From positions 1 through 64,000 of the forward strand of contig JASAMV010000350.1 of the NCBI GenBank assembly GCA_030248065.1: a stretch of DNA of 64,000 nucleotides, read 5' to 3'. The stretch comes from Rhynchonema sp. JSB1_4. Taxonomy: Eukaryota > Nematoda > Chromadorea > Monhysterida > Xyalidae. The notes under the pieces were generated by a model. The model worked only from the letters and a program-made list of their open reading frames with translations. It was not told the origin of the DNA and did not search any database. Position numbers and translations under genes: made by a program. Below, one piece after another: positions 1,062 through 63,963 of the stretch. Position 1 is the first letter of the stretch. Each line of letters opens with the position of its first letter.

Positions 1062-2561
1062 TTTGGGTGTGCTGTAACGAAACAGCACGTCACCGTGGTG
1101 GCCTTCGGAGCCACACTTTGCCCGATTCAGAGACGCCCCTCTCTCCGTCGCAAAGGGCAAGATACATGGAAACTTTCGCCTGAACGTCGAAGGGAGCTTC
1201 AGAAAGACGTCGTCAGCTACATAAAAGGAGGTACCGTGCACGTTTACAACGGCGTTGGCAGTACACAACATTATTCGACATTCAAGCGCGATGTGATCGA
1301 ATTGTGCAACAATATTGGAGTTGTCACCAGCGAGGAAGGCGCATTTGTTTTTTCGTTGATGATGGGTGCCAACATCAAGAACTACTGGGAGAGCCAAGGA
1401 GCAAAACGATTCAATTTCAACGAGATAGTGACGTCATTGGGCAAAATTTTCGGCGAGGACAGCAGCATGTACAACGCCGAACTTCGACTGAAAACGCACG
1501 AATGGAAGGCAGGACATGACACAATTGAGACGTACCTGCAACGATCGAATGAGCTGACGTCGGAGTTGTACCCGAATTGCACCAGCATCCAATTCCAGGA
1601 GCGTGTTGCCCAGACGTTTGTGCGAGGCCTTCCGGAAATGTTCGTCGCGCATCTCACCGATCACAGCGTCAACATGAACGACGTAAACGATATGGTGATC
1701 AAGCTGCGCTCATACATGTGGGCTCGCGCAACGCGTGGTGAAGGTCTAACGTGGCACGACCTAAACCCCAGGGCATCACAAAAGGTCCGAGGGAGCAGAG
1801 GACAAGTCGACCGAGGAGCACCGCGTGGCAGAGGCAGGGGCTTCTATAACAACAACAACCAGGACCAACGATCCGGCGGGGATTTCAACAACCGATTTCA
1901 ACGAGGTCGTGGCCAATTCAGGGGTCGACGAGGCTTCCGTGGACGTGGAGGAGGCACCGACCCGCGCACGTGTTTCAAATGCAACCAACAGGGCCACATT
2001 GCGACAGAATGTTTGAACGACGTCAAGCCAGACAAATCTACAACCCCGCGTGGAGGAGGAACTACGTCGCAACAATCATCGGACTTCCGTTGTTACAACT
2101 GCAACGAGGCTGGACACATGTCACGTAATTGTCCACAACCGAGAAAGGACAGGCCGAAAAATGAAACATCAGCCGGAACGACTACAGTAGTACACGAGAA
2201 ACAGCAAGCAGCACCACCGCCAAGCAGCGACAACACGTACTACCAGTACTGCTTCACATGTGGATTGGAGGATCCATGGTGCAAATGTGTGATGAATCAC
2301 CCGAACACCAATCCACGCTGCAATATAGCTACAGTACACCCGCAAAAGAAGAACAAAGGACCCTACTTCTGGAAGAACAGGCAGAAACAAAAGCAGAAGC
2401 CATGTGACCGCCCAGCTTCAGCGAAAACGGATCCACAAGTGCCAACGGACGAGTTCGTGTCGCAACTGCCGGAACGTCGGTTATCAGACTACGAAAAGGA
2501 GTTGATCCCCAAGATTGCACACAAAGTGCACGAGGAAGTTCTACAGTACCGAAGGTTGTAG
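1062..2561 (+). CDS. Gag-like retroelement protein with two CCHC zinc knuckles
   Basis: The frame is open from 1062 (after a TAA) to a TAG at 2559-2561, about 500 codons. It has no in-frame ATG near its start, so the true start may lie in an upstream exon or be lost. The N-terminal half resembles the retrotransposon Gag capsid region: a leucine-rich helical stretch, then ETYLQRSNEL and FVRGLPEMFV. An Arg/Gly-rich linker follows at about 1780-1950, a typical nucleic-acid-binding spacer. Two zinc knuckles of the form CX2CX4HX4C follow: CFKCNQQGHIATEC (about 1972) and CYNCNEAGHMSRNC (about 2092). A further Cys cluster, CFTCGLEDPWCKC, begins near 2251. No protease, reverse transcriptase or integrase follows. 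It is either the 5' part of a truncated LTR element or a solitary gag gene. The frame is undamaged over 500 codons. Confidence 0.8.
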   Translation, partial: FGCAVTKQHVTVVAFGATLCPIQRRPSLRRKGQDTWKLSPERRRELQKDVVSYIKGGTVHVYNGVGSTQHYSTFKRDVIELCNNIGVVTSEEGAFVFSLMMGANIKNYWESQGAKRFNFNEIVTSLGKIFGEDSSMYNAELRLKTHEWKAGHDTIETYLQRSNELTSELYPNCTSIQFQERVAQTFVRGLPEMFVAHLTDHSVNMNDVNDMVIKLRSYMWARATRGEGLTWHDLNPRASQKVRGSRGQVDRGAPRGRGRGFYNNNNQDQRSGGDFNNRFQRGRGQFRGRRGFRGRGGGTDPRTCFKCNQQGHIATECLNDVKPDKSTTPRGGGTTSQQSSDFRCYNCNEAGHMSRNCPQPRKDRPKNETSAGTTTVVHEKQQAAPPPSSDNTYYQYCFTCGLEDPWCKCVMNHPNTNPRCNIATVHPQKKNKGPYFWKNRQKQKQKPCDRPASAKTDPQVPTDEFVSQLPERRLSDYEKELIPKIAHKVHEEVLQYRRL

Positions 2562-4800: not shown

Positions 4801-4802
4801 AA

Positions 4803-5280: not shown

Positions 5281-5300
5281 TTTTTGCTCCGGGCCCCAAT

Positions 5301-5849: not shown

Positions 5850-5850
5850 C

Positions 5851-6551: not shown

Positions 6552-7845
6552 CTGAAAGGGCGCCGTTTCAACGAGAAAGTTAGACGAGATTTTCAACCAC
6601 TCAGGCTCGAAGCTTGTGACACTTATAGTATGTGTAAAAACTATCCCAACAGACCAAAAATCATTAAATTTGGACAACACTAAAGTTATCCAGCATAAGT
6701 TTACGCTTTGCGGTTGCCATATCAGGACACATTCGCTCGCACCGACGATGACCTGGCGCACCGCTGGTCGAAACGAAGTGTTGTTGCTCTTGGCACAAGA
6801 GAAATGATTAATTTCATTCCTTTTTTCTGCGCCCTGGGCTGTCTGGGTGGAGGGAGTCACAAGAACCTCAAATCAAACTCATCCCGCAACTTGCCTTTTG
6901 TGTGCGAGGTAGTGCGCTCATGCGAGTCCATGAAGCTCCTGGATTTCGGGTCGACTTGTCGATGTTGTGTCAAGCCATAATTATATATGGAAATGCGTCC
7001 ACAAATACATCATCAAAATTCCGACGTTGTACTTCCCAAAAAACGGCCGCAATGCCAGTGATGCTATATTTTCTCGTCGTTCTCAAACCCGCGCTGTTCA
7101 GGACAGACTGCAAGAAGCAAAAAAATGTTTCAAGGCTACGCAGCCAGCGTGATTGCCTTTGCAACAGCGCACACATTTCTGTTCTATTGGGTGCCGGCAA
7201 AGAGGATGGCCACACTTGGCACGAGGTGGGAATATTTTGCGAGCGGGATACTACCACCGCACGCACGCGCAAACGCAATAACAAGGGAGGGGCGCTAAGT
7301 CGCAAAGTCTCTTTCTGTATGTGTCCATGCGGATGCTTTTGGCGCACCCGTTGGTAATTGGAAAAAGGATACTGAAAGTAAACGTCGTGGAGCGGGACTG
7401 AGGAAATTAGAATGCCGTCGCTGAAATGTGCCTTCTTTCCATGCCGGTTTTTGTGCTTTGGTGCTCAAAAGAATGACAATTTTTTTCTGGCTTCCGTAAG
7501 TGATGGGGGAACAAAAAGACACTGCCCGTGATACAGTTGTATAGTGTATTATTTTGTACACTTTGGGTTGTCTTATTGTGACCATTCATGAACATGTGAA
7601 CAGTAATCTGAGTGAGCATGTGAACAGCAAGTACTATCATATCATCTTGGCATCGAAACACAACAGCAAAATAATTTACTGATGGGGCTTTGAGGTGTGT
7701 GATTTTGCTCTTTGTGGATTTGTGACTCGTGTATGCCCGCATGTACCTAATGTAGTCTGATACTTTATGCCATGTACAGCAGGTGTGATACTGTCATGTG
7801 GACGACAATGAAACATCAGCAGATTGTGTAACTTTGTTAAAAAAA
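6552..7845. other. no supported exon; probably upstream part of the C10-like gene
   Basis: The missing 5' exon of the C10-like gene should lie in or beyond this stretch on the minus strand, but I cannot identify it. A copy of a dispersed motif lies at 6739-6764. On the plus strand, 7126-7297 encodes a 57-residue frame with a hydrophobic N-terminus (MFQGYAASVIAFATAHTFLF). It lacks a convincing splice context or relatives and is left uncalled. Confidence 0.4.
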
Positions 7846-7851
7846 ATTTAT
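7846..7851 (-). terminator. polyadenylation signal of the small secreted-protein gene
   Basis: TTTATT on the plus strand is AATAAA on the minus strand, about 200 bases past the stop codon at 8052. Spacing and strand suit a 3' UTR end. Confidence 0.5.
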
Positions 7852-8886: not shown

Positions 8887-10949
8887 CCTGAGGGAATTGA
8901 GTGAATCGTCAAAACTTAGCTGATTATTTTTCGGATTATTTGAAATGAATCTTGGTGCAGTGCATTTGGGCGTTTTCTTTCGCTGTATGTCCTGTACAGC
9001 GCGTGCTTGGTGCAAACGTAAAAACTGTGCATGTTTTACAGAAGGTGAAAACTTGCGTGCGGCGATGCAGCCGTTATGTACAAAGCAGCGCAGAAAGCAA
9101 CTGGTTCCTTGGCGTTGCATGTGCACACAATTCACGAGCGTGTGTGCAGTTATTCAATGCAAAATGTTTTATCTTGCCGTCATGTGCACACAATTTTGTT
9201 CGAAATCAATGTCAAGAATAAAAAAATGTTTCAAAAAACGATAACGAAAATAAGTCAGTTTTCGGCTGCATTACAGTAAAGGCAAGCTACACCACCATAA
9301 GCTCGATTTCGCAGCTGGCCGAATGGTGAAACATTCTGACGTGGCTGCTGATTTGGGAAATGTTACACGTTGAAGAAAAAGTGCCGGCATGCATCATTTT
9401 CTCTTTCTTTTTTTTTTAAACCCCCACCCCCCCAAAACGGGGTCGTGGGCAGTACCTATATACCTGCATTGTCATGAGCTGCTTTGAGGACAAGGAATCA
9501 TACTTGGATCAAATTTTGTGAAACAGCAGCTCACGGCTGGATATACCATATTTGGTCATGGTTCATGGAACACCTGTGAAACATCATTGTTGAAACGCAT
9601 GAAATGAATTTAGGGTGCAACTGAAACAACGTGTTCTTGGTGACAAGATGTGAAAAGGTTTCAATTCCGTTTTTGAGTACGGCAGTGCATGTCTAGTTTT
9701 TTTGCGACTATTCTTCATGTGAAAACAAGGCAGTGAATCATGTCTCATTTAGGTTATTATAGAAATAATAATCAACAACACATGACTTGCGAAAACTTTT
9801 TTCTAAAATTTGCAGCAAAAACGCGGGCAGAGTATTTATTTGTTTGTTGATGCCTTGCTAAATGTTGATGTTCTAATTCAATCATAATTATTACGTTACT
9901 TATCTCCCCATTGTTTCTGTCGTTTATCCCTATGCCTGGTTCGGCGTATTATGCATATTTACTGAAGATTTACAACCGGTTTCACTCTGCAGTAAACATC
10001 CTTCGTTTCATGTTATGAAGAATCAATTGATAATACAGCCAATCTGATAAGAAGTGTCTGTTGCGAGTGTTATTGTGAGCTTGGTCGGCAGCCCTTGTAC
10101 ATGAACGTGTTTTGTCTATAATGCCAGACACAAACCGGTGGTTGATAACTTCATGGTTGGGTGCATATTATAGGCAGCGCGTCCGCTCTGAGATTACCAA
10201 AGGTACAGTCCACTGGAGCTGTGTGAAAAGACGTGGTTCAGGAAAAAAATCTGTTTCAAATTCGCAGAATGTTTTAAATCGTTTCAATACATAAGCATTT
10301 TTTGTTCAAAATCCTTATCAAAATGGGTACGACATCAGAATGCAGTTGGTTTGTGACGACCCAAATCCGTTTTATACCCAGAGCGAAGTGTATCAAGACT
10401 GTGCCGCAGTTTTTCATATAAATCCCCCGGGGGCTCTATTCGGGAACTGTGGGAAATCGGCTTGTTTGTTTCAGACACCGGAGGGCGTTGTATGCGACTT
10501 ATCGGTAACGCTGCCCATCAACCGCTTTCTATAAACGTGTAATTCGATCTTGGGTTTGAACAGTTGATATGCTGAAAAAAGGGAGAAAATCCTGCTTTGG
10601 GATGAAAATCCTTGCCTTTTTGTTAAAATCTATCTATGTATTTGTTGAAATTCATGGAATCCATTTTTCTAAAACAGGGCCACCTGGGGCTCCATTCGGA
10701 AACGTGTCCGGGTGATGGGTGCTCTGCATGGAAAACAACGGTGATATTCTGTACGTGTAATGTGCTTATCAGTGTTTCTGTTATTTGAAACATAGACCAG
10801 CTTACAAGCTGCTGCATTACGCTTGTCTGGTGTATTCTGCACGAACTTTTATTTTCGCTCCTGTAAAGTTCAGCTGACGATTCAATCATATATCAATCAA
10901 GAAGCAAATACCATTTACCAGACGCGATTTTTAAGGAATATCGGGAATA
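8887..10949. other. intergenic, no gene seen
   Basis: The span lies between divergent neighbours (secreted-protein gene on minus, PTR gene 1 on plus) and so should hold both promoters. I see no exon. Homopolymer tracts occur at about 9405-9440. Two copies of a GGGGCTCTATTCGG module lie at about 10430 and 10685, and one TGAAACATCA motif at 9577. Confidence 0.5.
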
Positions 10950-13900
10950 ATGCCGCAGATTTCCAGAAATGAACCCCGAGGACTGAAATGGCCCTGTTTG
11001 TATCTCACGAACGGATATCGCAAAATGCTGGGTGCACTCGGGGCCAAGGTGGCCAGACACAGAGTGGTGGCCATTTTGGGATCATTGCTGTTCACGTTGT
11101 GGTTAGATTGAAATTAAAAAAGTTAAATTAAATTTTAGATTTTTAAATTTGTTTTTTCTGTTATACAATTTGCAGTTTGTAGATGCATACACGAGTAGAA
11201 TACTAATTTACGGTACGTTGAGACAAATCAATACAGTCGTCATTTCCTCGACAAAAAGTGACCATAGTGGCTTCATGCGAGTGGCATTTTTTTTGAAATG
11301 TGCCATATGCTTTGAGAATATCGTGCTTTGGACAAAATAAATACAAATTTCATTCATCTTCATCGCGATAACCCGATTTCCAGCCTTTCACCCGGTCTGC
11401 TATTCGTTCGGTTGAATGAAAACCTCAAACACGGCTACACGCCGAGCGATGCCCCATCCGTTCATGAACTGTCGGCGTGGCGTCGATTCCATCGAAAAAC
11501 CGGCGAACCGCAATTATTTGGCGTTTTCGTGACGGCGGCCTCGTCAACACGCAAAACGCGAAACCGTGCCGCACAATCGCTTCTTAACATTGCGGATCTG
11601 AACGAGATATGGCACGTTTTTGAACGAACAGTGAATGATGTCAGCGTGAATCATAAAGGAAGTGAATGGAATTACCGGCGATTGCGAGCGAAACAGTATG
11701 AACTGCTGAATGAGCCTGTGAATCTGGTCAGGGTTAGTTGCGTTATTGGAGTTCGTGTTGATTTTCTGCGATATTATCGGTGATCGGTCCACCGGTCTTG
11801 CCTTGGAGCTTGGACACGTGATCTGTTGTAAAGTAGCATGTACACATTTCGCAATTTATACTGATGCTGCTAGTTTTGACCACCGCAACCACCACCCAGA
11901 CAGCTGATGAAGATCTTTGCCGCTGGACGAAATTAGAGACTTCAGTGATGCTTGAAGTTTGACAGTCCAAGGCAAGACACGACCGATCATCACGTTTGAT
12001 ATCGTCATTTGCATGTCTTTGTCATATTTGATGTTATCGCTCGCAGATCACGTCGTGCCCTTGAATAACGTCCGGGGCTGGAATCACAACGACTGTATTT
12101 TATGAAGCTTATTCCGTTTCCAGCAACTGCTCTCGACAAACGCGTCCGCCCATATCCATTTCCCGATCAGCTACTACGCCGGTCAACGTGTGAATCTGGC
12201 ACTGAACCTATTCGGTCCGCAGACCACCGCCGACATCGAGGAGACCAGCATCGACGCGCCGGTTCTGACCGGCATCGAGATGGTGGCCTTGTGGTACCGA
12301 ATCGACATAAATTCGACCGAAACGCGTGACATTGTCGATAAATGGGAGCACGCAATGATGGACATGACACTGGCCTATAATGCAAACAACAGTGAAACAT
12401 CACCTGGCCTGAGGCTGGTGCCGTTTGGCGAGCTCATCATCAACTCCGAGGTGAAACACGCCGGTCTGGCCAGTGCGCCGAATTTTGTGATCGGCGGCGT
12501 TGTGTTGGTGGTGCGTTTGGTTTCCTGGATTTTCGTTAAATGTTGTTCTTTTATTGCCAAAAAACCCAGTGGTCAGTTTCAAGCGCCACCACAATTTCGA
12601 AAACCAACACTGGAAGTCATGCGTGATTTCAGCTAAATATTATGCATTTACATATTAGCGGATCGCACTGACCAACTGTGCACCAGGCCATTATCAGTGC
12701 TGTGAACCTTTTCACCACCACAGAACATCAGGGTACCGAACCGTTGGGGTGGAGAAAGATGTCTGTTTGGGGCTGTGCATGCGAAAAATGGCCGTTTTCG
12801 GACCGGCAACTTTCGAACCGGCCGGTCCGAGGCACTAGTTGCCGGTCCGCAAGCAACTCAGCTGTCCTCACAACAACCGGCGGGTGCACCAGGTGCTCAT
12901 CAGTCTTTTTCATCAGCTGTTCGTCATCAGCGTGGTGGCCATTCGTGCGCACATTGACGGCGCGCTTCATTGGCACCTGTTGTTGGTCGTATTGGCCACT
13001 GTGACGTCACCCATCCTCGCGTGCGTGTCGACAATTGGACTGATTCTGCTGTGCGGCCTGCATCTGAATGTTATGATTTTGGTCGTGCCTGTGCTTGCGA
13101 TGGCCATCGGTTAGTGCAGGTAGTGACCCTCATTCCATAGTGATTTTTTAACCGACTTTTGATTCGGATTCCGCCCCATTAACTATCAGGTACAGGGTTG
13201 TTTCAAAAAAAAGTGGTTAATTTAAAAAAAAATTTAAAAAAAAAATTTTTTTTTTGAAACTCAGATTTTGCTTTTTTTTAATAAAAAAAGTTGCCCAAAA
13301 TGGGCTGAAATGTCCAAAAATGGCCTTTTTCGAGGCAAAAAATTGGCACTTTTTTTCTGTGGACGGGACAATTTTTCCAAAATCGCGCCTGCGGCGCCCT
13401 GTATTGTCCCCAAATCCGTACAGGGATGCGCGGGGCTGGTCTTTTAGAGTGATGTGGCACCGATAATGTACTACTGCATGCTGCTACACATGTATAGATG
13501 CAGGTATGGTGCAAAACCGGGCGCGCAAAGTCGATCTGACACGCAAGATTTGGGCTGTAATCGATATTTTGATGGTCGTATATCAGATATTCGGCATTAG
13601 ATGCATTAAAATACGTTGTACAGCATGCTACAATATATTAGAGTAACATCGTTAGTGAACATCAACCTCACATTGGTCGGAGACCATAGAATCTGCACAA
13701 TACTACCGGGTGTCACCGCACAAGTTGGGTCTCAGGCGAAAATTTTTCAATTTTTGAAAAATATGTTGTATCGATTTCATTTATTCTGAAACGTCGTTTG
13801 CAACACTTTTTCTAATAAAAAAAATTTTCGTCAAAAAAAATCAAAAAAAAATTTTTTCTTTTAAAAAAAAGCTCGTTAATAAAAAAATTTATTTTTTCAA

Positions 13901-16900
13901 CCCTGATCAGGTATAGATCGGAAACGCTGAGTTCTGATGGTGTCCACTATATAATGCGGAGAGCAGGTTTTTTTCAACCAGCACAATTCAAGTTTCATCT
14001 TGAAAGAAGAATCTATGAGAACGGATATCTGTGAAAAAAATCGTTGTACGTCGCTCGACACGAACCTATCTATACTACTAAAACAGGAAGACGTATGTGG
14101 GTATGTGTGTGGTTGGCCCCCTCCCTCGGAGGTGCGGAAAGGTCAATTTTCAAGGGTAGCTTTGGGTATGCTAACGGGTGTTCGGGGGGGGGGGGGGCAC
14201 GGCACGGGCGCGGCGCTGTAGCCGGGCCGTAGGCACGGGTCCCGTCTGGTTTTCAATAAATACAGTACCAGCTGCAACTTTGGGTGAATTCTGCACGTAC
14301 GCGTGCGTACGCATGCACGCCTTTGACGACTGTGGGCACAATGTATAACCACCCAGCGGTGCACGCGCAGTGCACGCATACGCACGCGTGCGTACAGTCC
14401 AACCACGAACTCATGAGACGACTTATTTTGAAGTTGACTTGTACGGATCCAATAATGTTCCGGTTCCACGTAATGAAAGAAAGAGAAACGCATGTATTTT
14501 TTAAAAACACGCTCTTCGGTGCGTAAATTCCCTTTTGACTCCCAAAACATTTGTGTGTTGAACGACGCTGCTGTTCGCGTAAGCACGCAACAAATTGAGG
14601 TCAGCCAGCTGGAACTTGTCATCATCTCTCTCGGCCCAATCTCTGTCTTTTGTTTGCGAGAACCCGCGTAACCGGCGCATTTTTTATTCTGGTCAAGCAA
14701 GCTTTAAAGGGTGTGTCTAACGTCTCTTAACCCCATGTTTTATGAGGTGCAATCGAAAGATGACCTCGACAGGCCGGCGTGTGCAAAAAACCGCGTCTTG
14801 TAACTCGCTAAATCGCGAAATCTTGAGGGTTACTTTTCGAATTAAATCAATTTCCGGACACAAAACTCCAGGCGCTTTTGAGTCGGCGCTACTCACGTTT
14901 GGCATTATTCCGCTGAAACATTGCATGTTTAAGCGCGGCTCAGCCGCCTACACAATGCACGTAGACGCTCAACGCACACCGCTCTGGCTGCTGGCTTGAC
15001 TGTGGACACAATGAATGTTTCATTTAACACATAGAAGCTGGTTTGTGTGTGTTTCGCTTCGCAGCTTTTTTCCGTCAGCTCAGTCTGAATTTTGTGTCCG
15101 GAAATTGATTTAATTCGAAAAGTAACCCTCAAGATTTCGCGATTTGACTAGTTAGAAGACGCGGTTTTTTGCACACGGCGGCCATTCGAGGTCGTCTTTC
15201 AATTCCACCCAACAAAACATGGGGTTAGGAGACGTTAGACACACCCTTTAAAAAGAGTCGTCTCATGAGCACGTGGCTGGACTATACGCGTGTACCGCGT
15301 GCACGCCTTTGACCTTTTGAGCACCGTGCACGCGGCGATTGTGGTGCAGTCGGCCTCCTATACTTTTGTGTGCGCAGGCGTCAAAGGCGTGCATGCGTGT
15401 ACGCACGCGTGCTGCACGCGTAAAGGCAGAATTCACCCAGAGTTGCAGGTGGTACTGTAGGTGACAACAATCATTCTAACGCTCTCACATCCCCGCAAAT
15501 TCCAGGAGTGGACGACGCCTTTCTCCTAACCCATTCCTGGCGCCTGAATCGGTATGGTCACGTGACCGGCCAGCCAATCAGCGCTCAGCACCGACTACGG
15601 CGTGTTTATGAAGATGTCGGGCCATCGGTATCGATAAGGTTCGATACTGGCCGAAGACTTACACTTAAAGCCTTGGAAGTAAAGTGGCCGTATGGAATGA
15701 GAATCCCCATTTAGCCTCCGCAACTATAAAGTTGAAGTATAGATGGTTTGTTTATCTTCGGTATAAGGTATGGAATGAATGATTTACAATGAAAGAATGC
15801 TATTTATAGCATTCCCCACTCCTCCCCCCGCCAGGGAGCCTAGGACAAGTGGTTCTGGGGAGAAAATGACGGGTTAAAATCATCTTTTATGGATCACTGT
15901 ATCACGCGCTTATATATAAGATCAGTGTTAATTCAACTGATTTAAAAATGTCCGTAACGTCCTTTTTTCATCGTGTGGCTTGCTTCAATCACACTACCAT
16001 CTCTACTTCAAAGTCCACCATTGTTTCTCACTGTATTTGCCAACATCATCACTCGAAGCTGCAGATCTTTCCGGCTAGTCGTACTCCATCCACAGTCTTC
16101 TTCTCGGCTTCTCGGCCACATAATCAACGTTGCACGTCGGCCAATCATCGCGGCATATCGGCTCGCTTCATCATCAAAGTTTAGTCCACGACGCGATCGG
16201 TCCGAAATTTTCTTCATCCAAATTTAGTCCACGACGCTATGGTCCAAAGTTTTCTTCACGGCACGACGGCAAAATCAGCGCACTCCACGGCGCAGGGCAA
16301 CTCCATGGCCCAAACCCAATTCGGGGCTCTCCACGGCCCAATAACGGCAAAGTCAGTGAGGGTCAAAGGGAATAATTTAATGTCCAGGCAGCTTGGCCAT
16401 AATTGGACTAAAATATCAGCAGAGGCCACGACGTAGGGTTACGGTATTTTTCGGGCACTGCGCGAGGGTGTAGGGGACACACGATATCCCGCAGAAGTCC
16501 GCCAGTTGAAGTATAGATGGTTGTTTATCTCCGGTATAAGGTATGGAATGAATGAAATACAATAAAGGAATGCTATTTATAGGATTCCCCACTATAAGTA
16601 GAAACGTTTTCTAGTTTACTACTATGTACATACGTCGCTAGTCTCAATAGTGGTTCCTGACCAGTTCCCAGCCCTGCCGTGGTGCACCGGCACATCCTCA
16701 GCCTTCAACACATGTTGATGTTTCAGTTCCCTAACCAACGTGCTGGCATTCGCCATCGGTGCGAGTGCCCCCACACCCGAGCTGCGTCTGTTCTGCGTGA
16801 CCGCCAGTCTCGCGATGGCCTTTGACCTGTTCTACCAGTTAACTTTTTTCGGCGCCTGCCTCGTCGGTGCGAACGAGCTGGCGGTGAACAAACGTCATGC

Positions 16901-44000: not shown

Positions 44001-44001
44001 G

Positions 44002-49673: not shown

Positions 49674-52600
49674 TTAATAAAAGCTCGACAATCTAGACAG
49701 CTGAACACTCTCGCCCAGTGAAGCCGCCGTCAGCACGCCCTCGATTTTGGTCGTCGTTTGATCGTGCGTTTCGTGGTCTTCGTTAGAGTCCAACTGTAAA
49801 TGGAATGTTGTGAATATTAGTGCCGTGTACACAAGCATACTTACAGTGAATAGAGGTGACTCTCTCCTGTTGTGTGACTCGGGTTGTCGGGTTATCATGC
49901 CCATTGCAATCCAAAATTGTAAAATATGGATCAAGCAATAATATCTGCTGGTGGGGCTTTTTGAAGGCAAATTTGCCAAAGGTGTTGCCAAAGGCCTGGC
50001 GCCTCGGTCTGTCTGCGAAAGCAGGGCGAAACAGACCAACACTGCTGCACTCAGTGCATTTTATAATCCATGCAAATCCCTGATCCGGCTATAGTTACAT
50101 TCATACACCTGTTGTCAACATGTTTAATTCAGTTACGTCTTCTCAATGAACTTGTCATGTCAGTGAACGTCGATAAAAAAAACATTGCCAGAAATAATCA
50201 GCCAAACTGAGGTGATTTCCTGCGAAAATAGCTAACCGCATCCAGTTCGGTATTTGTGAATATTTTCGTCAAGATGCCCGATCTGACGAACGCCAATATC
50301 AACAGCGCAAACGGAAAGGCCAAACGGGTGTGCTTGAAATGTTTCACTGAGTACACGGCACACAGACCCAACAGCTGGATGACCGTGTACAGGTGCATAC
50401 GCGTGCGTTTCACCTGAAAATCAGGGTAGATACAGACTGCAGGATCCTATTGTCGCAATTCGCATGTGAACCTGGGAATCGAAGATAAAGATACACACGT
50501 CTTCGCTGGTGGAAATACTGTAAATTTTAAAGCGCACAAACGCAAAAATTTCCCCGCGCACCTCCTTACAGTACGGCCGATCCGGGTAGTACTTCTGCGG
50601 AATGAAGAACAACATCATTCGTGTCAGGAATTCGACACCCACGAAGTTCATCAGCGCCAAGTACAAGAAAACGCCAAACAACACGGCCAGGGGCAGATGC
50701 GAAATGTAGGCACCCATGAATGCGCAGGATCCTGCAAGCCGAAATTTGGCTGAATTGTACAGGAGTGCGGTGTGTTTTGCACTGAAGATGACCTGGTGCA
50801 CCGCCATCGTGCCAATACAACAAGCCTAAGGCTGTCACAGCACAACAGGCTCACACGGCCGATACTGCCAAATGCGATATCGCACAACTTTTCGTTGATG
50901 TCAAATTTGATCAAGTTTGATACCGGCGCAGTGAGACCAGAGGCAATCCCCTTTAAGCTTTGGCTTCGATTTGTACTCAAACCCCAACTCACCAACGAGC
51001 AGCGACACGAGAATGTTCGTGACGCGTTGTTCAATCACATATTCCACCGTGGCACGTTCGCCGGGTGCCGGTCGGTTCCAGACGGTTAGCGACGCGCAAT
51101 GGGCCACAGACTGGGAACAAGAACGTTGTATCTGTTGTGATGTTTCACGATGGATACCAAACATTGCTTAGTATTCATGGTTCGATTGCAATCTGTTGTG
51201 TATCTATATTTGTGTGCCTATCAGGGTCGTCTGAAGGTACATCGATTGCTGGTTGAAAGCCGATTTATTCAAATGATCCTGAGTCGCCAAATCCAATCAC
51301 TGCACTAGCTATTTGGCTGTAATGTGGCAAATTTTGTTACCGCTAAGATCAAATTCTGAATCAGTCTTGTACCGTTGGGCATGATTACACGGGTATGACA
51401 AAATTGCGTGCATTGGCATTGTTTATTGATAAACTACGCTTGTGACACAAATGATGAATTGACAGTCATTTGTACACAGCAGGTCAAAACCTGATGTTTC
51501 ATACAACCTAAAAGTTCACACACCTGTACAGCAGCGACGCACATCCAGGGCAGCCTGAAGACACCACACACAACGCACAACACACCGGACAGGGGTATGT
51601 CCCAATGGTGGCCACCGTTGCCTTTGACAAGACCCCGCTCGTGTCGACGGAGAAGCAATCTGCAAATCAAAATTAAGAGAATTATTTATGTATCCTGCAT
51701 AATGCGGGGTGCACATTTTTACTGCTATGTATGGTGATTATGTCGGGTTTCGGATTATATAACCATAGGCTGGCTGTTGAAAGACGCCTGCTACACCCCG
51801 TTTCCACCACGACCAAACGGAACCATGTTTCAGAACCGAGGATCGTTGTCATGACCATGAGGATGAAACTTCCAATACTGCGCATCCACTTTACGCGCTG
51901 ACTCGATTGGGATACCAGAGTATTTTCGGTGATCATAAAGTAAACATAAAAATGACTCAAACTGGAGGTGCCGCAGTGAAAGCGTGAACCATATGAAGTA
52001 TGAACACCATTTAACCATGCAGTTGAGAAATTCAGATCGAACAACCGAATCGGTCATGTTAGAATAAAACTAACTCGGTGATCTGTGTTTCGACAAATAT
52101 GAGCACGTAGAGCAACAATCCCGGCACTATTGCGAACCAACAGGCCCAGTACTGGCCGTCTTCGAACCAGAAATCGGCGATGATACGGTAGGAGCCGGAT
52201 GTGTGCGCCAGGTTGTGTGGCATGTCAACGTGCTGGAATAAAGTGCAGCTGGGAGGAGGCTTATTCCAATGTAGTCTACGCGCATGCGCGTATGGTATTT
52301 CGTGCCAATACAGCTGGACAACAGTGGCGTGTACAATGTAGTTGGGCAGGTGCTATAACACGCTTGGATAGCGCGACGACTAAAGCGTTGACGACAATAT
52401 AGACACTCTGCTTTGCGTTGGCACGGTAAGCGCACATGCGTGTAGACTACAACAGAATCAGCCGGCCGAATTGTGATCTCTTGCGACATCAGGTATGCGT
52501 GCCAGCTTTCCTTTCACATTCAGGGAACAAGACAAGCATTAAGGTCTGGGTGTACTCACTTGAATGTAGACATGGCCGACGATGAAGTGCCCAACGACGG

Positions 52601-55600
52601 ATGTGATCGCAATCGATATCAACATGCCCAGGTCGCAAATCGCCAGACGCCACTGAAATCAAGGATGATGTTTCATTTGTTACATGAACTGTAAGCATAG
52701 GAAGGACTTGCAAAGCCATCCCGAAGAAGCGTGAATGTCATCAATGGGCATGATAACAGAGAAAAATCTCATCATAAGGGCACATCTCATCGCTGTGACA
52801 CCTCTGTCAATTTGATATCCGCAAAGGCATTAAAACGGGCAGATCGCATATCGATCGTTTTCGTGATCAAATATTTTTTATGATATTCTCTCGTAGCTCA
52901 TGCCTGACCATGTGTTTGACGCGTTTATTTATTTTTATGCGCGCTTCTCATAATCAAACTGAGAGTGAGAACACAACATAGTGCAAAGATTGAAAGAGCG
53001 ACCCACCACTCCAATTGTGCACATCTGAGAAAATTACATTTGACCGGTAAAAACATTATAAAAAAACTTGTGTTAAAAATAGCAAGACACACCATGGACC
53101 ACAATTTTCTAATTGATTAAATCTCTGATGATGAAACATCACCCAGGTGCACATATCGGTATACCTTTCGTCCAAAGTACATTTTGTTCCTGAGCACTTT
53201 GAATGCGTAGCACAACATGAACGTTGCGACCACATAGCCGATGCTGACGACGCCCGTGTCCGGCTGATGCCAACGATGTTGACATTCATGCACCGAACCC
53301 TGAATCAGGGACGGGGGGAATTTGAATTTTCAATATTTTGAATAGTTGAGCTGTATCAGCTGATGCTTAATGCCACAAATACTGCGCCACAGCGTTTTTT
53401 GATGTTGGGCAGCACAACATGGCCAGTGTCAAACTTGGAGATCGGATTGGCTCTGTCGAGCATTCTTGAAAAGCACTAGGTGCACTCCATGGATGGAAAT
53501 GTAATAAAAGGTCACTGTTTGAGGCAAAACCGGACTTGGACAGCGATCCATCAAATTGATGTTAACTAATGTTTGCAGAAATCTGACCAGTCAAAATAAC
53601 GGGTCTTGAAAGTTGAGTAACGTGAATCCCGACACCTGTATCATGTCATCATGATGTTCATGCATGCCGTGTACCTGGCCAGGGGCGTATATATCGCTGG
53701 AGTAGAACGCGTACAAGGCTTCCACATATGATGTTTCATTCGTGGTGCCGTTTAGCTGTTGCGCGTACGATTTGACACACAGCGCGTGCTGACGGATGTA
53801 GTAGTCAATGTTACCGATTGGGTTTGTCTCGAGAGTCTGTAGGAAAAAGTGTGTGTTTGCAAATCAGAAACCATGAGTGAATATGAAAACCAAATAAACA
53901 CACATTCATCATGAACTTGACACTTTCGCCGATGAAAATCGCCGAAATCAACGTCGTGAACACATCCTCGGTGAAACTAGAAAACTGTGGTATTTGGGGG
54001 TGTTAAATTAAAAGAACAAACAATGAAATTGAAAAAAAGAATACTGACACCGTTACCAACCGTGTGATGTATTTGAGCAAAACTGCACCTTCGAACGCAG
54101 TGGTGACGATGGCGGCCAGGAACAACCACAGCGACGCCCACACACGCATGGTTAGGAAGTTGAGATCGAGGTAGTCACACACCTGGGTGTAATTTTTTGT
54201 TGCAAAAAATTAGGATCGTTGCAGGAAGATAGTTTGGGGGGAATTAGCTGACACAGTTTGAGTGTGAGATAATTGGCTAATTAAGTGCAATCGTCAAGAT
54301 GTTGGTCTACATACTGCTACCGACAACCACGACGCACTTAACATACGCACATTCATTGGTGTGTAACATCGATAGTCATCAACTATTTTGTGGTTCATTC
54401 GTTGTACACAGGCGACTGTTTACATATCCAGCTGATACTACCCAATGTTGTCTGCGTACTGATGAAAATTGCACAAAAACATTTTGGTGACTAAAAAACA
54501 GGCCGGAACACAGAGACGAAAAAACCGCTCCTCACCGCATACAAACTGGCCTCAAATATGAGCACCGGACCAGTGGCGGAGACAATGTGTAGGGGTTGAG
54601 CACTGAACAGTCCCCAAAGCATACCACAGATGCATTGAGAGAACAGCGTTTCGATGATGCCGATTTGATCGTGCGTGTACGAACCTGTGGCGAGAAGATC
54701 AGAAATTGTACACTAGCAGAGTGAAAAAGTACACTCACTGAGTGTGAAAATGTACCCTTCCAAAAATTATTGTCTCCGACGTACAACCCAGTGAAATCAA
54801 CTCAAAACAGAAATGAACAAAAATTACTGACGCAAGGTGTAAAATAACTCCGTACTTCTTGCTGGTGTAAAATTTACACTGTGAAATGCAAACTCACCCA
54901 ACAGTCCGCCGAACGTGATCGCAGGCGCGATGGCCGCGAAGAACAGAAACAGAATTGATGTGAGACATTGGAATGGGTCGTGCAGCACATCAGTGAAATC
55001 GGATTTGAAATACGGCGGGAACCGCTCACGGAAGTCCTCGATGAAACCGCCTGATTTTGCAAGGGAATGATATTGATGTCTGATGAACCATGCACCCAGT
55101 TATGATGTATTCAATTAGAAACCCACCAAACAGCCGGCCAGTGCGCCTGAGCGGATGTCGGAAACCACGGCTGGCAATTGAGTGTGCGCGTTTGATGCTG
55201 CCTGTATTATGACACACCTGGTTTAGATTTGAAAAGAGCAATAGATTTGCTAATGTATGCCATTGGTCGGTTGGTGCACCTTGTTTAGTATTTTACCAAC
55301 CGAATATTTGCGTCAACCACAACAGCACTTCAACAAGTCTTCAGGACCGCAAGCGGGTGCCAAGACAGGTCAAACATGACTGTCATGTTCATTGACTGAC
55401 TCACGTTTGCGATCCCGCTCACGGAGATTGTTGACCCTGTTCTGTTGTCGGATGTATTTCAGCACATCGTCCTGCCCGAATATCGGATCGCGTTCAAAGT
55501 CGCCCGGCGGAATCACCGTGCTGGAGGACAGAAAGTGACTGAGTCCTTCTTGTAGGTCCTGGCGGACGAGCGCTTGGTTGGCGACTTTGTGGAAATGCTG

Positions 55601-58600
55601 CAACGAATGAGAATGTTATTTAAAAAAAACAGTCCATGGTTATTTTTCAAGCTTGAATGGGCGCCAAAAAATGAAATGCAATTCGATATTTTTACAGACA
55701 GCTTTGCAAGCATCTCTAATGGGCATGATAACAAGATGACACCATTCTATTCGCGAATGGGGGCATTTGATGACACCTGCCTTTGAGGTCGGCATATGCG
55801 TGTTCTCTATTTCATCGTTTACAATGTAATTTTGCTGGTAACAAACGCGAACATAAAACGAATGAACTTCATGCCTGATTGGCCATCAGTGTCCCGACGG
55901 ATCGACCAATCTCGTGATATTGCGTTTGCGACTTGGTCGGTGGGCCAATGATGGCGAATATGAAGCGGATGGGTAGGTCTAAAAGTTAGGTGTACTTATG
56001 TTCAGTGTAGTTCCTGGTCCGGAGGGGGAACAGGCGGTACCCCCTTTTTTCGGAGGGGGAGCAGACGTATACCCACCTGGGGGAGGGGAAGGGGGAGGAC
56101 CCAATTTGGAGAAAAGTGATTTTTTGAGGTCGAAAATTTGACTCATTTTTGCCCCTTTTTGGAAAAAATCTCAATAAAAAGGGTATTTTGACGATTTTTG
56201 ACGACATTGACCTAAAAATCACTCATTTTATGCCTAAAAATGCCTATTTTAGGCCTAAAAATGCCCATTTTAGGCAAAAATTGGGTGAGCAGACGTACCC
56301 GGGGGGGAACAGTGGGGCAGGCGAACCATGGAGGGGGAACAGACGTACCCGAGGGGGGACCCCTCCCCCCCAGGAACTACACTGCGTATGTTTGCACAAT
56401 GTAACTGGGATACGAGAGCGGAGATATACACACATTGATTACACACATCAGGACATGCATCAATCTGGTGATTGGTAAACACTAAATAGAGTATATCAAA
56501 TAGAACAGTGAAAATAAAATATGAGGAAAAGAACGAAAGGTATAGCCAACCAGGGTTGAGCTGCGGAATCACGGCTGGCTTGTGTAGCCGGACCATTATG
56601 AACATTTCGGTTTGGATTTCGGGAGTTTCGGCCACCAGAATCTGTAAGTATATGGAAATCAATCTTGTGTTTAGGCAAAATCCTGATGTAATTAAGGCTC
56701 AGGGAAATAAATTTAAGGCCTGCGCGACGACCAACCTGCGTGATTTGACGATTGGTTCGAAACCTGAACTCGTTATTCGTTATCGTTGGTTCGGAATAAA
56801 CGGCACTCGGATCCTTCGAAGAAGACGTGTCCTGAAAACAGCACCAAACGTACAGTATGCATCATGAGCCCGGACAACAGCTAACGCAGAATTTCACTGG
56901 CGTTGCCTGATTCGCCAAGCACATGGGCAGCGAGATTGGAAACTTACTACACGACTGCGAATGTCTCTTGAAGATTTCAATCGAAGAAGCCGGTGCGGAT
57001 GGGCGTGATAATAAGAAGTGTTTTCCAGAGTGAAAGGCGGGTCTTTCCCCCAGCGCTTCTCATCTGCGCAAAAGCTCGCTGATGTTTCATTCACTGCATG
57101 CATGGATATACAGTATAACCTGGACGGCCAATTTCCCATCATGTGGCCCCATAGAGCAGCGCACATTGGTGAAATTGCGTGTCACTTGATATTGCGGTGT
57201 GAAGCTTTCGCTACCAAGCCAGGACACCGATTTTGTCGTTCGCATTGTCGGAGGATTTGGGTCGTCTTCCTTGACTGATGACATATGTTGTTTCCTAAAG
57301 AATGTCACGTCGCTTTTATGATTTTTAGTATTTTTAGTTTAAGAATCGTTCTTGCAGACGTGTTGATTGAAATGAACGTCGTTTTCGATCTCATTATGTA
57401 GAATGTTTGTTCCGTCATTTAGGAAAAAACGGGAATTCCTGGTTCCGTCAAAAAAGCGGGTAACCGTAAACTGGATGGAATTACTGCAGATTTGACTGTG
57501 TTTCGACCAACGCGGTCTATTGTACCTTCTCTTTCCAGTGACAAACGGTCTTGCGGTGTCTTAATAGATGGGACAAAAAGTCCATTTTTACTGTGGACAA
57601 TAAAGGGTGTGTCCGAACGTCTCCTATCACACCCCTATTTAGTGCGGTGTTATTAAAATGTCCCACACACTCTTTAATGGTGAGCTGTGTTCATACTAAC
57701 AACAATTTGTTTGAGACTAACAATTTTTTTCGCGCCTCCGCTTCAGCATCAAATCGAGATTGATTTTTGGCCATTTTGTCGTTTCGGGTTGTCGACGACG
57801 TCACGTGACCGTTGGCCACTCGGCTGTTTTGCTGGCTGCAACATTTTGCAGAGAAGCAAGTATAGTTCGGCCTTTATAGAGTGTGTGAAACGTGACATCA
57901 TCATACCTTCTGCTTACAATGAGTCGACTATCCACGCCAAAGCAAGTGCGGGAAACACTGCTATAAAAACTGACTGACTACTGACATATTGCGATATCAC
58001 AATATCACTGGCTAAATTGTACTGCCGTCAAATCATGCAACAGAGCCCCCAAATCAGTGCGAGAAACAATACATGTGATTTGACGACAACATCTGACGAC
58101 ATGATTTGACCACACACTATAAGAGATGTTACTGCCTTCAGTCGGTCACTTTATTGAGGTTCGCGCACCCAATGGCTGAAATTCACAAAACCAAGTCAAG
58201 CTCACCGTCAACTGCAAAGTCAAGCTGAACTGTGTTGATTACGGTATAACGCAGGGTTGAAAAAAAATTTTTTTTTATTAACGAGCTTTTTAAAAAAAAA
58301 TTTTTTTTTGATTTTTTTTGACGAAAATTTTTTTTATTAGAAAAAGTGTTGCAAACGACGTTTCAGGACAAATGAAATCGATGCAACATATTTTTCAAAA
58401 ATTGAAAAATTTTCGCCTGAGACCCAACGTGTGTGGTGACACCCGGTAGTATTGTGCAGATTCTATGGTCTTCTACCAGTCTGAGGTTGATGTTGACTAA
58501 CGATGTTACTCTAATGTATTGTAGCATGCCGTACAACGTATTTTAATGCATCTAATGCCGTATATCTGACATACGACCATCAAAATATCGATTACAGCCC

Positions 58601-61600
58601 AAATCTTGCGTGTCAGATCGACTTTGCGCGCCCGGTTTTGCACCAGACCTATGTATATACATGTGTAGTAGCATGCAGTAGTACATTATCGGTGCCACAT
58701 CACTATAAAAGACCAGCCCCGCGCATCCCTGTGCGGATTTGGGGACAATACAGGGCGCCGCAGGCGCGATTTTGGAAAAAATTGTCCCGTCCACAGGAAA
58801 AAAGTGCCAATTTTTGGCCTCGAAAAAGGCCATTTTTGGACATTTCAGCCCTTTTTGGGCAACTTTTTTTATTAAAAAAAAGCAAAATCTGAGTTTCAAA
58901 AAAAAAATTTTTTTTTTAATTTTTTTAATTAACCACTTTTTTTTGAAACAACCCTGGTATAACGTTGTGAAGAGGCTAGTTTGGTTGGCCGACAGCTTTT
59001 TCCATTCCCATTGCAAGCCTGACGTTGAACTTGACGGTGAGCTTGACTTTGTTTTCTGAATTCCACCCATTGTTGTCAGGGCGGACTGTATCACATAAAT
59101 ACCTGTCTTCCTGAACAGCTGCATTCTTGCTCTGCTGAATCGGCGTGCTGTTGTGCTGCTGCTGGCCGGTGGAATGGGATGCACATGGGGCACCACTTCG
59201 TGGTCTGGAAGAAAGATATCATTTTTGTTTATGAGTTTCGCTTGATACGATACCTGTATACATCGTGATCGTCTGTAATGCAGATACACCTACAGTACCG
59301 GGTGCAGTTTCGGGCTGAAGGCACATGTATATGTGGAAGTGGACGTGCACGCTGTCTACTTTCGCAAAACATGTCGCGAAGTTGCAGTGCTTCGACAGTT
59401 TTTGTAAAAATGCGCCTTGCACGAAAAAGTCGCTATAATTGCACCCCAAAAATCGCACTCGATACAGTTCGTTGTGAGAGCACCGCTTCTTTATCTACAT
59501 ACAAGGTAAAGTATTAAAATACCGAATATTCCGAAGGGCAACACTACTTCCAGGCCCGGTTAGTGTAAGCACCGAAATATTTTGAAAAATATCCGCTCAA
59601 ATTTACGATATCTCTTGAAACACGAACGAACTAACTCGACGTGCACCCTGTTGTATTTGAGTTTCACCCTGATCGCCGTCTGTTGATTCAGACTCAAATC
59701 GCACTCCTCCGCCAACGCCTGCGCCATCCGATCGCATAGTGTTTCAAAGTCGAATGACTTCTCGTCCAACATCAAAACGCCTGAATTTTCAAGCAAATCG
59801 GCTATGGTACCCGGTCAAAACCTTCGATGTTACTGTGCTCTAAATTTTATTGTTCATCATACTCTGACACTTGCACCACACAGACATCGCACGATTTAGA
59901 CCTTCTGAGTGAACAGGTTTTACTGTTTCGGGTTTCAAGCCATCACCGGACGTTTAGGCCCACAATCTCCTAAGACACTGCGGTCAAACGGTCACAATCT
60001 AATTGTGCGGTGCATATAATGACAAGAAAATGCTTAAAAAATACATTTTTGCTGCTTTTTGCGAATGTATGATGGTCACGTGATCCCAAAACCTCTACAT
60101 ATCTTTACACTTGACAGTGCTACTTTAATATATAGCTCCCGAAAACAATCACAATAAGCAATAATATCAGTATATATTATGAAACATCAGCTCACCAACC
60201 TTGAGTGAAACATTTCTTCAGTTCGAGCAACGAATGCAGCGCCAGAAAGGCAACGTGTGGTCGACCCCATTTCTGATCCACCCCCTCCACCACTTGCTCG
60301 TATTTTATCCATCTGCACTGTTCGTGCCACGCGAACGCAGGTGCAGCTGGCTGATGTTTCACCGCGCACGGCTTCAAACCGTACAGCACGACCAGGCCCT
60401 GCGCGAAATTTGTTGGATAAAGTATGTAAGGTATTCTTTGCAGAGTGACCCTAATTGCGAAACTGTCTGGCGAATATTTTTTTACATTTTGCTCCTCCAC
60501 CCACCATCTGCATCGATCCTTAGATCTGAAATAATTTTTAGCGAATCCTCTTTACGATCAGGAAGATTGATCGCGTCACTATGTGAAGAGAGGTGACACT
60601 ACAAACGAGGGCTTATGATGTTGCGCTTGTTTAGGCTCATGATGCATGCGCCTACCGATCAGATGGGCATGGTAACACAACATGTGTTCGAAATTAAAAA
60701 AAACGGTGAGTGAAATCGTTCCACCGAGCGGTATAGCTACCTCAGTAGCAAGCGGTTTCGGCGCCTTTGCATTCGCGATCAGTACACTTTTGCGCGGCTT
60801 GACCGGCGCATTCGGCTCAGCATATTCATCAACGTTGCGCACTTTGGGCGTACGACCACTAAAACATTAGAATATTTAGTATGGGACTGATCACAAGGTT
60901 GCAAATCATGTCAACCTTTCGCATGTGCGAACAGAGGCGCAGCTTTTCCGTTTTTTGTTGTTCATTTTTGCCGTCGGTATTTTGTACACAGGGTTGAAAC
61001 TGGACCAATGTGAATTGTACAGCAATGTGCTTTTTGGTTGCCCGCTTCGACCTGCTTTCGCAGACGGGCGGTGCACCAGGTCATCGTCAGTGCGAATGCA
61101 CCAGATGGCCACGGTGACCCCAAAAAGACACACGAGCTGGTTTTATGCTCGCGTAAAACATCACTGTTTTGTGCAAATGCACAAAACTTCGTCAGACTTC
61201 GCCTTCGTGGGGCGTTCGCCAAACAGTTACTGGATGGTATCGGTCCAAGAATGAGCAATGTGTCACGCGAAACATCATCCAGTTACAGGGACCATGGTGT
61301 AACAAAACTCACCCAGGCGCAGTGACAGTCAGATGATGCTGATCATAATACGAATTGTGTTCGCCCTCACCGAACGCAAAGTGCGCACCGATGGATCGAA
61401 GTGATGCGTTGAGTTTGGAGAATGAAGAACGTACTGGAAATTGATGACACTGCGCTTGGTCTTGGCGGTACAGTCTACCCTCTCTACAGTGGCACTCTAA
61501 TAGTACAGTCCTCTTTTTGTGTCAAAGCTTTCAGATTCCGAATTTTCACGTGTTGCCCTCTATGGTGTAAATTTCTTTATTGTATGTTGACACACTTTGC

Positions 61601-63963
61601 CCTCGGAACGGTACCTTGACATCTGAAACATCTCTTTTTGTGGTGTCAAGAATGTGAGCCACCGCAGCAGTGTTCACAAATGAGAGAAAATGGAGGTCGC
61701 ACTCTATGCCTCAATTACGAGGCTTTAACACCAGACTCAAACGCGTCTGCTCTTGGTATCGTGGTGTTGTTTCTGCATCTTTACATGTAAAATGACGCCA
61801 AGCACATTCATGACTCACAAAACGCACTACATACAGTATGTACAGAAAATGGTAGTACTATGACTATTGATATAAGCCCAAATTCCTGTAAAGTGAAAAA
61901 ACACACATACTCGAAATGGATAACTGCGTCAACAGCGATGTTTCCCGTCCGGCTTGTTGGCCCCCGTGCTGCTCCTTGTTCTTGTTGTTGTTGTACAGAT
62001 GTGAGCGGACACTGCGTAGTGGGGCACTTGGGTCAAACAGGGCAGGCACAAGGAGACGACGGAAATGGGGTGTTGATTGCGAGCGCTGTGGTGGTGCCTG
62101 GTGAAAGACATCAATGAGATTTTTGGTTTGTGGATATTGTCGGCGGTTTAATTAACTAGCTACTGTACATATGTAGTGACATCGAGCAAGCCACTCTTTG
62201 TTTGGCATTAATGGCGACTGTAGAGGATAGTGAACAGGTACGTATAAATCAAACACCAAACGTTTGTCTCACGCAAATCATTCTGAATTTGCAATTATTC
62301 AGTTTTGAGCTGTAAAATGATAAAACCAGTGAGTTTGATATTTGTTTACATGAACACAACTTTTTCACATTCAGGTACATAAGTACCCTATCATGTGGTC
62401 GCCTTGCCGACTCAGGGTCTTTCTCCTCTGAAATAAAATGTTTAGTCAAACCTGAGTACATGAGTTAGCAAGGCATCATCAATGAAGTCACCTCAATCGA
62501 ATGCCCAATATACAAATTTTACTCAAAGATGCCATGATATTATACCTTCACACTAAATCCATTCTCCTGCAAGTGGCCCAATTCATTTCTCGCATTTGAC
62601 ATCTGCTGCCGCAGTTGTCTGAGCCCATTCGAACTCTGCGAGTGCTGCATTTCAGCTGCACTACTGTCACCATTTTCGATTTCACATCCATTGATCAAAA
62701 TGGCGATATGGGACCCTCCGCCGCGATCGGTGAATGATGGTGCCTCTAAGGTGCTGGTGTCTTCGGACGCCGATTCTGATACTGGAATATGGCAGAATTT
62801 GAATCAAAAAGTCTTTCCACACTCAGAGACTTCGCGGGATACTTGTTTTTGAATAAAAACAATTCCACTTGGAGCCAAGCGGGGTCAATTCGAATGAAAG
62901 TATTTTCCGATAGGTACTTTTGAACGTTGATGTTCATTCATGCAAGTGTGAAGCGAATATTTTTTCAGTGATAAACTCTCTCTGCTGTCGGGGAAAGCAG
63001 TATTGACTTTTCATAATAATCACCTCCGGTTACCCCAGTGGCTTTATGTCAAAAATAGCTATCTGCCACAAGAGCAAAGGCTCAAGAGCAGAACAAGGTG
63101 GTACCTTGTATTTTATGGGAAAAATCCGAAGGCGCCAGCTACCACGAAGCCTAGTCACCTGCGCTCGTAACGTCAGCAAGCTTGCCGTCTACGTCTATGA
63201 CTGTGGGTTGAAGACAGTCAATATAGTGTGCAATAGCTGTGCATCGTATGTTTTGTGTGTGTGACGAAAAAAAGGGGCGGGAAAATGAAAAAAGGAAGTC
63301 CGATACACACAGGGAATTCTTTTTTGAAAATAACCACATCCATGTGTGACTGTGACAAAACGTAACAGGTCAGGCGGTTTTGCCTATTTTATTATTAAAG
63401 TTGTCATTTATGCTTGTATGAATAAGCGTTTGAATCAAAACAGAAAATGTTTCCATACAGAATGGAAAGGAACAACCGTGTATTCTTGGTCCATGCTTGG
63501 TAAGTACATATCTTCCACAAACAACGAAAGTAAATGAAAACAAAGCGCTCATAACGCACAAATGAAGTTGTCGGAACCTTTTTTTCAATGAAAATATTTT
63601 GGATACAAAACTTTGGAGGTCGCGTATAATAATTTTGTATTGCCACAGAGCCATCTTATTCAACGTTCGGACCGTATTTTTTCAGAAGAAAGATTCCAGA
63701 AACCGGCATGGTGGCGTTTTTGTCAATTAACAGCAATGGGCAAACTTTTGCGACATCCCATTGGTGTGTGAAACGACACGTGACTCTCTCGGACCGCGAA
63801 CTATACTTGTATAGTCAGCAACAACATCAACAAATTAAGAAAGTGTGAAACATCAACCGACTTGACGAACAGGCTTCATTCTCTTCCGTGTCCTCAGCGA
63901 TGGTGAAGTAGGCGCGAGTCTGACCAGCACTCGATCGTTGCGACTCGAGGTCGTAGTCTGAGG
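49674..63963 (-). CDS. SLC4 anion exchanger (AE1-3 type), 5' end off window
   Basis: 26 exons in coding order: 63862-63963, 62546-62781, 61911-62097, 61313-61433, 60741-60858, 60200-60398, 59607-59780, 59103-59204, 57120-57274, 56551-56641, 55875-55978, 55405-55597, 55127-55201, 54898-55050, 54536-54684, 54049-54182, 53904-53976, 53675-53836, 53165-53299, 52560-52652, 52075-52232, 51524-51659, 50993-51110, 50562-50731, 50237-50413, 49674-49793. All phases agree; about 1,210 residues. The cytoplasmic domain has CRWIKYEQ, WGRPHVAFLALHSLLEL and PIRFIFAIIGP. The membrane domain starts GRLFGGFIEDF, with AIAPAITFGGLLG, the TM5-6 loop NGTTNETS (two N-glycosylation sites) and SVAHCASLTV. VLIFVETQITE keeps the Glu (52089-52091) typical of Cl/HCO3 exchangers where Na-coupled relatives have Asp; RMHLYTVIQ and LAFPF...LTKIFTNTELDALDSNE are also AE-like. 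The intron after 55875 uses a GC donor. Confidence 0.93.
56003..56384. mobile_element. hAT-like MITE in an exchanger intron
   Basis: A 382-bp element with perfect 15-bp ends, CAGTGTAGTTCCTGG and complement. The flanking octamers CTTATGTT (55995-56002) and CGTATGTT (56385-56392) differ at one base, fitting a slightly aged hAT 8-bp duplication. The interior has G-runs near the ends and repeated CCTAAAAATGCC. It ends only 24 bp before the exon at 55875-55978 on the minus strand. Confidence 0.82.
57604..57673. repeat. 70-bp mini-element related to the TTAA MITE
   Basis: It begins AGGGTGTGTCCGAACGTC, close to the end of the 14708-15247 element, and ends ACACACTCT followed by TTAA; the left flank is ATAA. 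It is probably an internally deleted relative with one mutated flank. It lies in an exchanger intron. Confidence 0.5.
58252..58956 (-). mobile_element. hAT-like non-autonomous element, copy 2
   Basis: A 705-bp element flanked by GTATAACG on both sides (58244-58251 and 58957-58964). Its reverse complement matches the 13193-13905 element along its whole length with only small differences, mainly in homopolymer lengths. It lies in the intron between the exchanger exons at 59103-59204 and 57120-57274. A long open frame crossing it is an accident of its base composition. Confidence 0.9.

Follow-up and report, generated by a model that had tools for sequence, protein, structure and literature searches.

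A ten-base word scattered through a nematode genome may mark thousands of tiny snRNA-type promoters

We analyzed a stretch of 64,000 nucleotides of the nematode Rhynchonema sp. JSB1_4 (contig JASAMV010000350.1, positions 1 to 64,000, or C208:1-64000; hereafter the window), in which a sequence-only reading had noticed a strongly recurrent 10-mer, TGAAACATCA (TGATGTTTCA on the opposite strand). We followed this word through the assembly of the species (GCA_030248065.1; 203.9 Mb in 5,747 contigs). It may mark thousands of tiny promoters that are scattered over the genome and resemble the promoters of nematode genome-defence RNAs. The motif equals or closely resembles the element that U1 small nuclear RNA (snRNA) genes have at the position of the proximal sequence element (PSE). 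It is similar to the corresponding elements of U2 and U6 genes, and some of its copies have a TATA box at a fixed distance behind them. Its identity as a PSE is in our view highly probable. The explanation that we favor as a whole, i.e., a dispersed PSE-type promoter element, predicted to be bound by the SNAP complex and with tiny RNAs resembling Piwi-interacting RNAs (piRNAs) as its likeliest output, has about an even chance of being right.

The window contains 21 copies of TGAAACATCA, which is its commonest 10-mer. All 20 positions listed by the sequence-only reading are correct, and one copy, at 16716, had been missed. The random expectation given there, 0.12, was too low, as 100 dinucleotide-preserving shuffles of the window had 0.57 copies on average (maximum 4), but the excess holds. 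A genome-wide count had been proposed beforehand as the check by which the observation could be refuted, and it leaves the observation standing: the assembly has 37,556 copies, about equally distributed between the strands (18,727 and 18,829), for 345 copies (173 and 172) of the reversed word. This amounts to around one copy per 5.4 kb. The 14-mer GTGAAACATCAGCC was found 1,689 times (838 and 851) in the assembly and its reversed form was never found. We also searched 20 tiles (L009-L028, 197.4 kb) of contigs C281 and C17 and found 28 copies of TGAAACATCA. These contigs were chosen by length out of the motif listings, and their choice is thus partly motif-dependent; the tiles were then taken by place. 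The window and these tiles together (261.4 kb) have 49 copies for 1.8 expected from trinucleotides. Among the literature matches listed, judged by their titles, none reports this motif in such numbers or is about the word itself.

To characterize the link with transcription, we identified the U1, U2, and U6 genes with Rfam models and read the DNA upstream of them. We built a weight matrix solely from 48 dispersed copies and scanned it over 108 bp upstream of these genes, omitting the U2 hits L038-L039 (2 out of 9) and the U6 hits L045-L048 (4 out of 9), whose 5' ends were not recognised. The best same-strand match is at -44/-45 in 8 of 10 U1 upstream regions, at -47/-48 in all 7 regions of U2, and at -56 in 4 of the 5 regions of U6. 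The score is at least 6.8 bits in 17 of these 22 regions; among 5,000 random stretches, 4.3% reached a score of 7 and 7.8% a score of 5. Two matches at the fixed place are weak (L031 with 1.3 bits and L058 with 3.3 bits), and three regions (L052, L056, and L044) had no match there. Two U1 regions (L054 and L057) carry the exact TGATGTTTCA at -45. The elements read, for instance, GGCTTATGTTTCACGCGCGAATGACTACCCC upstream of U1, GGCTGGATGATGTGACAGCC in U2 genes (ATGTTTCAC in a divergent U2 copy), and GCGCTGATGCTACAGG in U6 genes, where a TATA-like box follows 15 bases past the 10-mer. In all three types of genes, this fixed upstream place is where the PSE, to which the SNAP complex binds, is located.

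Two of the snRNA loci have peculiarities of their own. The U1-like gene in L057 (contig C3984) is preceded by the motif, 7 bases, and TATAAA, and its U1 5' end is 45 bases away from where the motif starts. This 5' end is altered (AAACTTACTT), and the gene may be a variant of U1 whose promoter is of the TATA type. The locus of a U6 gene in L040 has a tandem repeat with TACACCCAGAAATGTTTCRATTA.

A TATA box also follows some of the dispersed copies. Among the words downstream of 130 copies, TATA with its first base 17-19 bases from the motif start is the strongest (12 vs 2.1); here and in the counts of flanks, profiles, start signals, and open frames, copies sharing flanks were entered once. The pattern TGATGTTTCAN{6,9}TATAAA is present 306 times in the genome, for 24 occurrences of TGATGTTTCAN{26,29}TATAAA (a 12.8-fold difference) and 3 of the reversed pattern. 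We collected 45 such sites, of which 40 come, in listing order, from 100 listed among the 306 and 5 from an earlier set (3 sites with the same letters as an earlier one and 1 other site were omitted). The gap between motif and TATAAA is 7 in 27 sites, 9 in 9, 6 in 5, and 8 in 4, and past the TATA box none of their bases shows strong conservation. One site, in L001, adjoins an exon of exportin-1, which starts ~20 bases past the motif as judged by eye. The sequence-only reading had offered several interpretations, and this list is partly supported: the transcription signal is supported by the fixed distance upstream of U1, U2, and U6 and by the fixed TATA distance in a subset of copies, whereas the splicing signal and the mobile-element remnant lose ground (see below). 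Besides, pairs of contigs such as C38 and C491, C84 and C792, and C319 and C357 are identical in motif, spacer, and TATA, which points to both haplotypes being present in part of the assembly.

On the opposite strand, the 10-mer forms the core of ctGGyTGGCTGATGTTTCACa. The 49 unselected copies show GC-TGATGTTTCA-C with weak flanks. An extra 5' part, CTGG(C/T)T-GGCTGATGTTTCAC-A, is seen in 66 copies of the 14-mer (in this sample, 60 sites were retrieved from 100 listed out of 1,689), with frequencies of 0.68 for G, 0.64 for C, and 0.74 for T at -6, -5, and -4. The extension GGyT is thus strong in the 14-mer copies and weak in the unselected ones. Among 67 copies whose flanks are distinct, none of the flank positions is conserved, and beyond the 5' part only TATA is kept. 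The absence of a longer surrounding element, claimed earlier, is borne out in the copies examined, where flank conservation ends ~20 bp out. Besides the 49 exact copies, we counted the copies with one mismatch. They exceed the expectation at positions 0, 1, 2, 7, and 9, but not at the core positions T3, G4, T5, T6, and C8 (17 vs 19.8 expected). Hence, decayed copies do not linger, as expected if a binding site with the core GTTTC is being maintained.

Among known systems, the motif would work most like the Ruby/SNAPc piRNA motif of nematodes in its scattered layout. In excerpts of Beltran et al. 2019 (PMC6436959), the piRNA upstream motif of nematodes is described as derived from the motif of the snRNA-activating protein complex (SNAPc) and as keeping GTTTC. 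According to the same excerpts, this motif has an additional 5' part in Plectus, for whose piRNA loci no TATA box is reported, and is scattered in introns in Pristionchus, with 97% of the intragenic piRNA loci being intronic. Our motif shares with these promoters (Plectus sambesii, P. murrayi, Pristionchus pacificus; PMC6436959, excerpts) the GTTTC core, the kinship with the snRNA promoter motif of its own genome, the dispersed copies on both strands, and the bipartite structure of full copies with an extra 5' half. It differs from Ruby by its ~37,500 exact core copies and, more specifically, from the Plectus motif by the fixed-spacing TATA of a subset. The motif is also like the PSE/PSEA of animal snRNA genes bound by SNAPc in lying ~45-56 bases upstream of U1, U2, and U6 on the same strand, and like U6-type promoters in combining a PSE with TATA. 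The gap between 10-mer and TATA is mostly 7 in the dispersed copies, unlike the 15 of U6 in the same genome. To our knowledge, PSEs belong to few genes, whereas this motif is scattered in tens of thousands. Bacterial genomes have highly iterated words, such as HIP1 and uptake sequences. These are likewise short, fairly evenly spread, present in and out of long open frames, and without a longer element, but the word described here is in a eukaryote and is tied to snRNA promoters and TATA.

In the explanation that we favor, many of the ~37,500 copies would be bound by the SNAP complex, or by a complex derived from it in nematodes, on either strand and whether within genes or not, and short non-coding RNAs would start ~45 bases downstream of the motif. 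The likeliest products would be piRNA-like tiny RNAs, as with the Ruby motif in the scattered layout of Pristionchus and Plectus. Judging from the genome sequence, we give the production of tiny RNAs from the motif copies slightly less than an even chance, and it is rather doubtful that the products would be true Piwi-bound piRNAs. The Piwi domain has 54 exon matches genome-wide, which fit Argonautes in general. A search for the SL1 RNA family gave no match, and neither did its control. An unlikely variant is that the tens of thousands of snRNA-type promoters drive tiny RNAs that do not follow the 21U rules, as a separate system or as an ancestor of the Ruby piRNAs, in a nematode outside the known piRNA groups. 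More generally, the dispersed motif would extend snRNA-derived promoters scattered over a genome to an animal in which the known 21U pattern is not followed. It offers a direct test of the origin of nematode piRNA promoters from snRNA promoters, and another of whether the TATA-bearing versions make an RNA polymerase III class of tiny RNAs.

Several results weigh against the favored explanation, and the first concerns the start of the RNAs. A Ruby-type motif has a YRNT initiator with a 5' T at a fixed distance of ~42 nt. In the sets of 67, 71, and 170 copies, our scan of start signatures by offset (T, YR, YRNT, TTTT, and others) gave neither an initiator nor a 5' T or YRNT that keeps a constant distance near +45. 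The set of 67 copies had only weak peaks, and one of these, YRNT at +38 (0.16 vs 0.07, z 2.8), was outside the five highest offsets in 170 copies, where the peak was at +65 (0.12 vs 0.07). Hence, we file the motif as a dispersed PSE-type promoter element and not as a Ruby-type piRNA motif. The offset scan of 71 copies of the 14-mer gave A at +11, T at +18 and +21, and A at +22; the TATA signal in the set of 170 copies arises because 40 of them were picked for TATAAA. A T at fixed offset behind the sister word AATGTTTCA was discarded, as it stems from dispersed repeats. The second group of points concerns the promoter itself. TATA at +16 to +19 is rare (3 of 49 unselected and 10 of 79 14-mer-selected copies; the significance of the difference was not computed). 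In most U2 and U6 elements, 2-3 of the 10 bases differ from the dispersed core, the 3' part of the U1-type PSE (GAATGAC) is in none of 168 dispersed copies, and many snRNA genes are near-identical, so that there are fewer independent promoter types than the counts suggest. Thirdly, 8 of 46 copies are in long open frames, for 8.2 expected by a crude stop-to-stop measure, i.e., there is no depletion, unlike the 97% intronic share of the Pristionchus intragenic loci (PMC6436959, excerpts). Over the tiles, the content in long open frames had no significant correlation with the number of copies (rho -0.19, p 0.35). Finally, a search for Piwi_N gave zero candidates; its control gave no signal either, and this is not proof of absence.

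The lack of a start signal and of depletion in open frames would suit a site for another sequence-specific protein (of the architectural, pairing-centre, or repressor type) that resembles the PSE, and whose copies would organize chromosomes and start no RNAs. The equal use of both strands and the fairly even spread (mean of 1.8 copies and variance of 2.7 over 26 10-kb tiles) also agree with it. Such a site would hardly explain, without transcription, the fixed place upstream of U1, U2, and U6 and the fixed TATA spacing, and we hold it to be improbable. We give a similarly low chance to a mixed population, where a minority of full-length copies (GGyTGGCTGATGTTTCACa, with TATA more often) would be working PSE promoters and the bulk of the 10-mers would have other causes, e.g., mutation or conversion bias, or a role as decoy sites. 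TATAWA is indeed at +16 to +21 in 6 of 71 GGC...C copies and in 0 of 59 others, and the higher TATA count and the strong GGyT extension of the 14-mer copies go in the same direction. Yet core mismatches are not in excess when all copies are counted, which suggests maintenance of the bulk as well.

The copies of the window are the following, the strand being the one on which TGATGTTTCA is read.

2162..2171, minus: motif copy inside the CCHC zinc-knuckle open reading frame 1062-2558
7809..7818, minus: motif copy
9577..9586, minus: motif copy
12393..12402, minus: motif copy within open frame 12106-12636 (without Pfam match)
16716..16725, plus: motif copy absent from the earlier list
18098..18107, plus: motif copy where open frame 17546-18100 ends
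21007..21016, minus: motif copy on the border of open frame 20342-21013
22064..22077, minus: full 14-mer GGCTGATGTTTCAC
31793..31802, plus: motif copy
36083..36092, plus: motif copy
39237..39250, plus: full 14-mer GGCTGATGTTTCAC
47681..47690, plus: motif copy
51138..51147, plus: motif copy amid SLC4 exon matches, antisense to the gene
51492..51501, plus: motif copy near SLC4 exon match 51703-51521, antisense
52666..52675, plus: motif copy amid SLC4 exon matches, antisense
53132..53141, minus: motif copy directly behind SLC4 exon match 53269-53150, on the gene's own strand
53729..53738, plus: motif copy amid SLC4 exon matches, antisense
57080..57089, plus: motif copy ~1.1 kb past the outermost mapped SLC4 exon match
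60180..60189, minus: motif copy
60349..60362, plus: full 14-mer GGCTGATGTTTCAC
63846..63855, minus: motif copy

The exon matches of the anion exchanger (SLC4) are on the minus strand between 55982 and 50231. Nine copies had been placed in or beside this gene, and we find five (51138, 51492, 52666, 53132, and 53729) among its mapped exon matches. A splicing signal or an intronic enhancer, suggested by copies a few tens of bases from exons (such as 53132 and the exportin-1 site in L001), is very unlikely, because the copies inside SLC4 are on both strands and the motif has a fixed TATA spacing and is present upstream of snRNA genes. The zinc-knuckle frame listed above encodes 499 amino acids in a single frame with two CCHC knuckles and has few homologues, which cover 13-18% of its length. 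Exons of a Patched/sterol-sensing domain are at 23456-24627 on the minus strand. Rfam models at gathering thresholds and a tRNA search found nothing in the window.

The weakest alternative, in which the copies are left over from, or targeted by, a mobile element or tandem repeat, draws on the sister word AATGTTTCA, which is also frequent and has many copies within several dispersed repeat families, but it is largely refuted for the TGATGTTTCA form by the 67 distinct-flank copies without conserved flank position or longer consensus and by the lack of an excess of core mismatches. One of these repeats is an inverted-repeat-like dispersed element, CTCGGTGTAAAC...TTTACACCGAG, which carries AATGTTTCA (window ~23313, 41947, and 41974; L010, L035, and L036) and looks like a miniature inverted-repeat transposable element. 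Another has CCCAAATCAGCAGCCACGT ahead of AATGTTTCA (window ~9327; L010, L019, L045, and L046). Other repeated sequences include AATAGAGCCC, with 23 copies in the 261 kb of the window and L009-L028 for 0.2 expected and with mismatches concentrated at two positions, and a tandem array at 4802-5218 of the window, with 3.6 copies of a 116-bp unit containing GCCAATCAGCGC.

Among the tiles, C17:10001-50000 (L022-L025) is a region of 40 kb with 0 motif copies and very long open frames rich in Ig I-set domains, which we take to be titin/twitchin-like. The mitochondrial COX1 is translated with the invertebrate code. Among the best 120 of 7,999 matches, arthropods, an onychophoran, and the nematode Heterakis are 62-65% identical to it, and one further protein reaches 76%. 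A COX1 tree of 31 rows places the query with 14 other sequences, apart from the named rows, and does not settle the phylum; the animal is perhaps an early branch of the nematodes. The TTR-52 (transthyretin-like) family, which is essentially nematode, has 15 exon matches in the genome.

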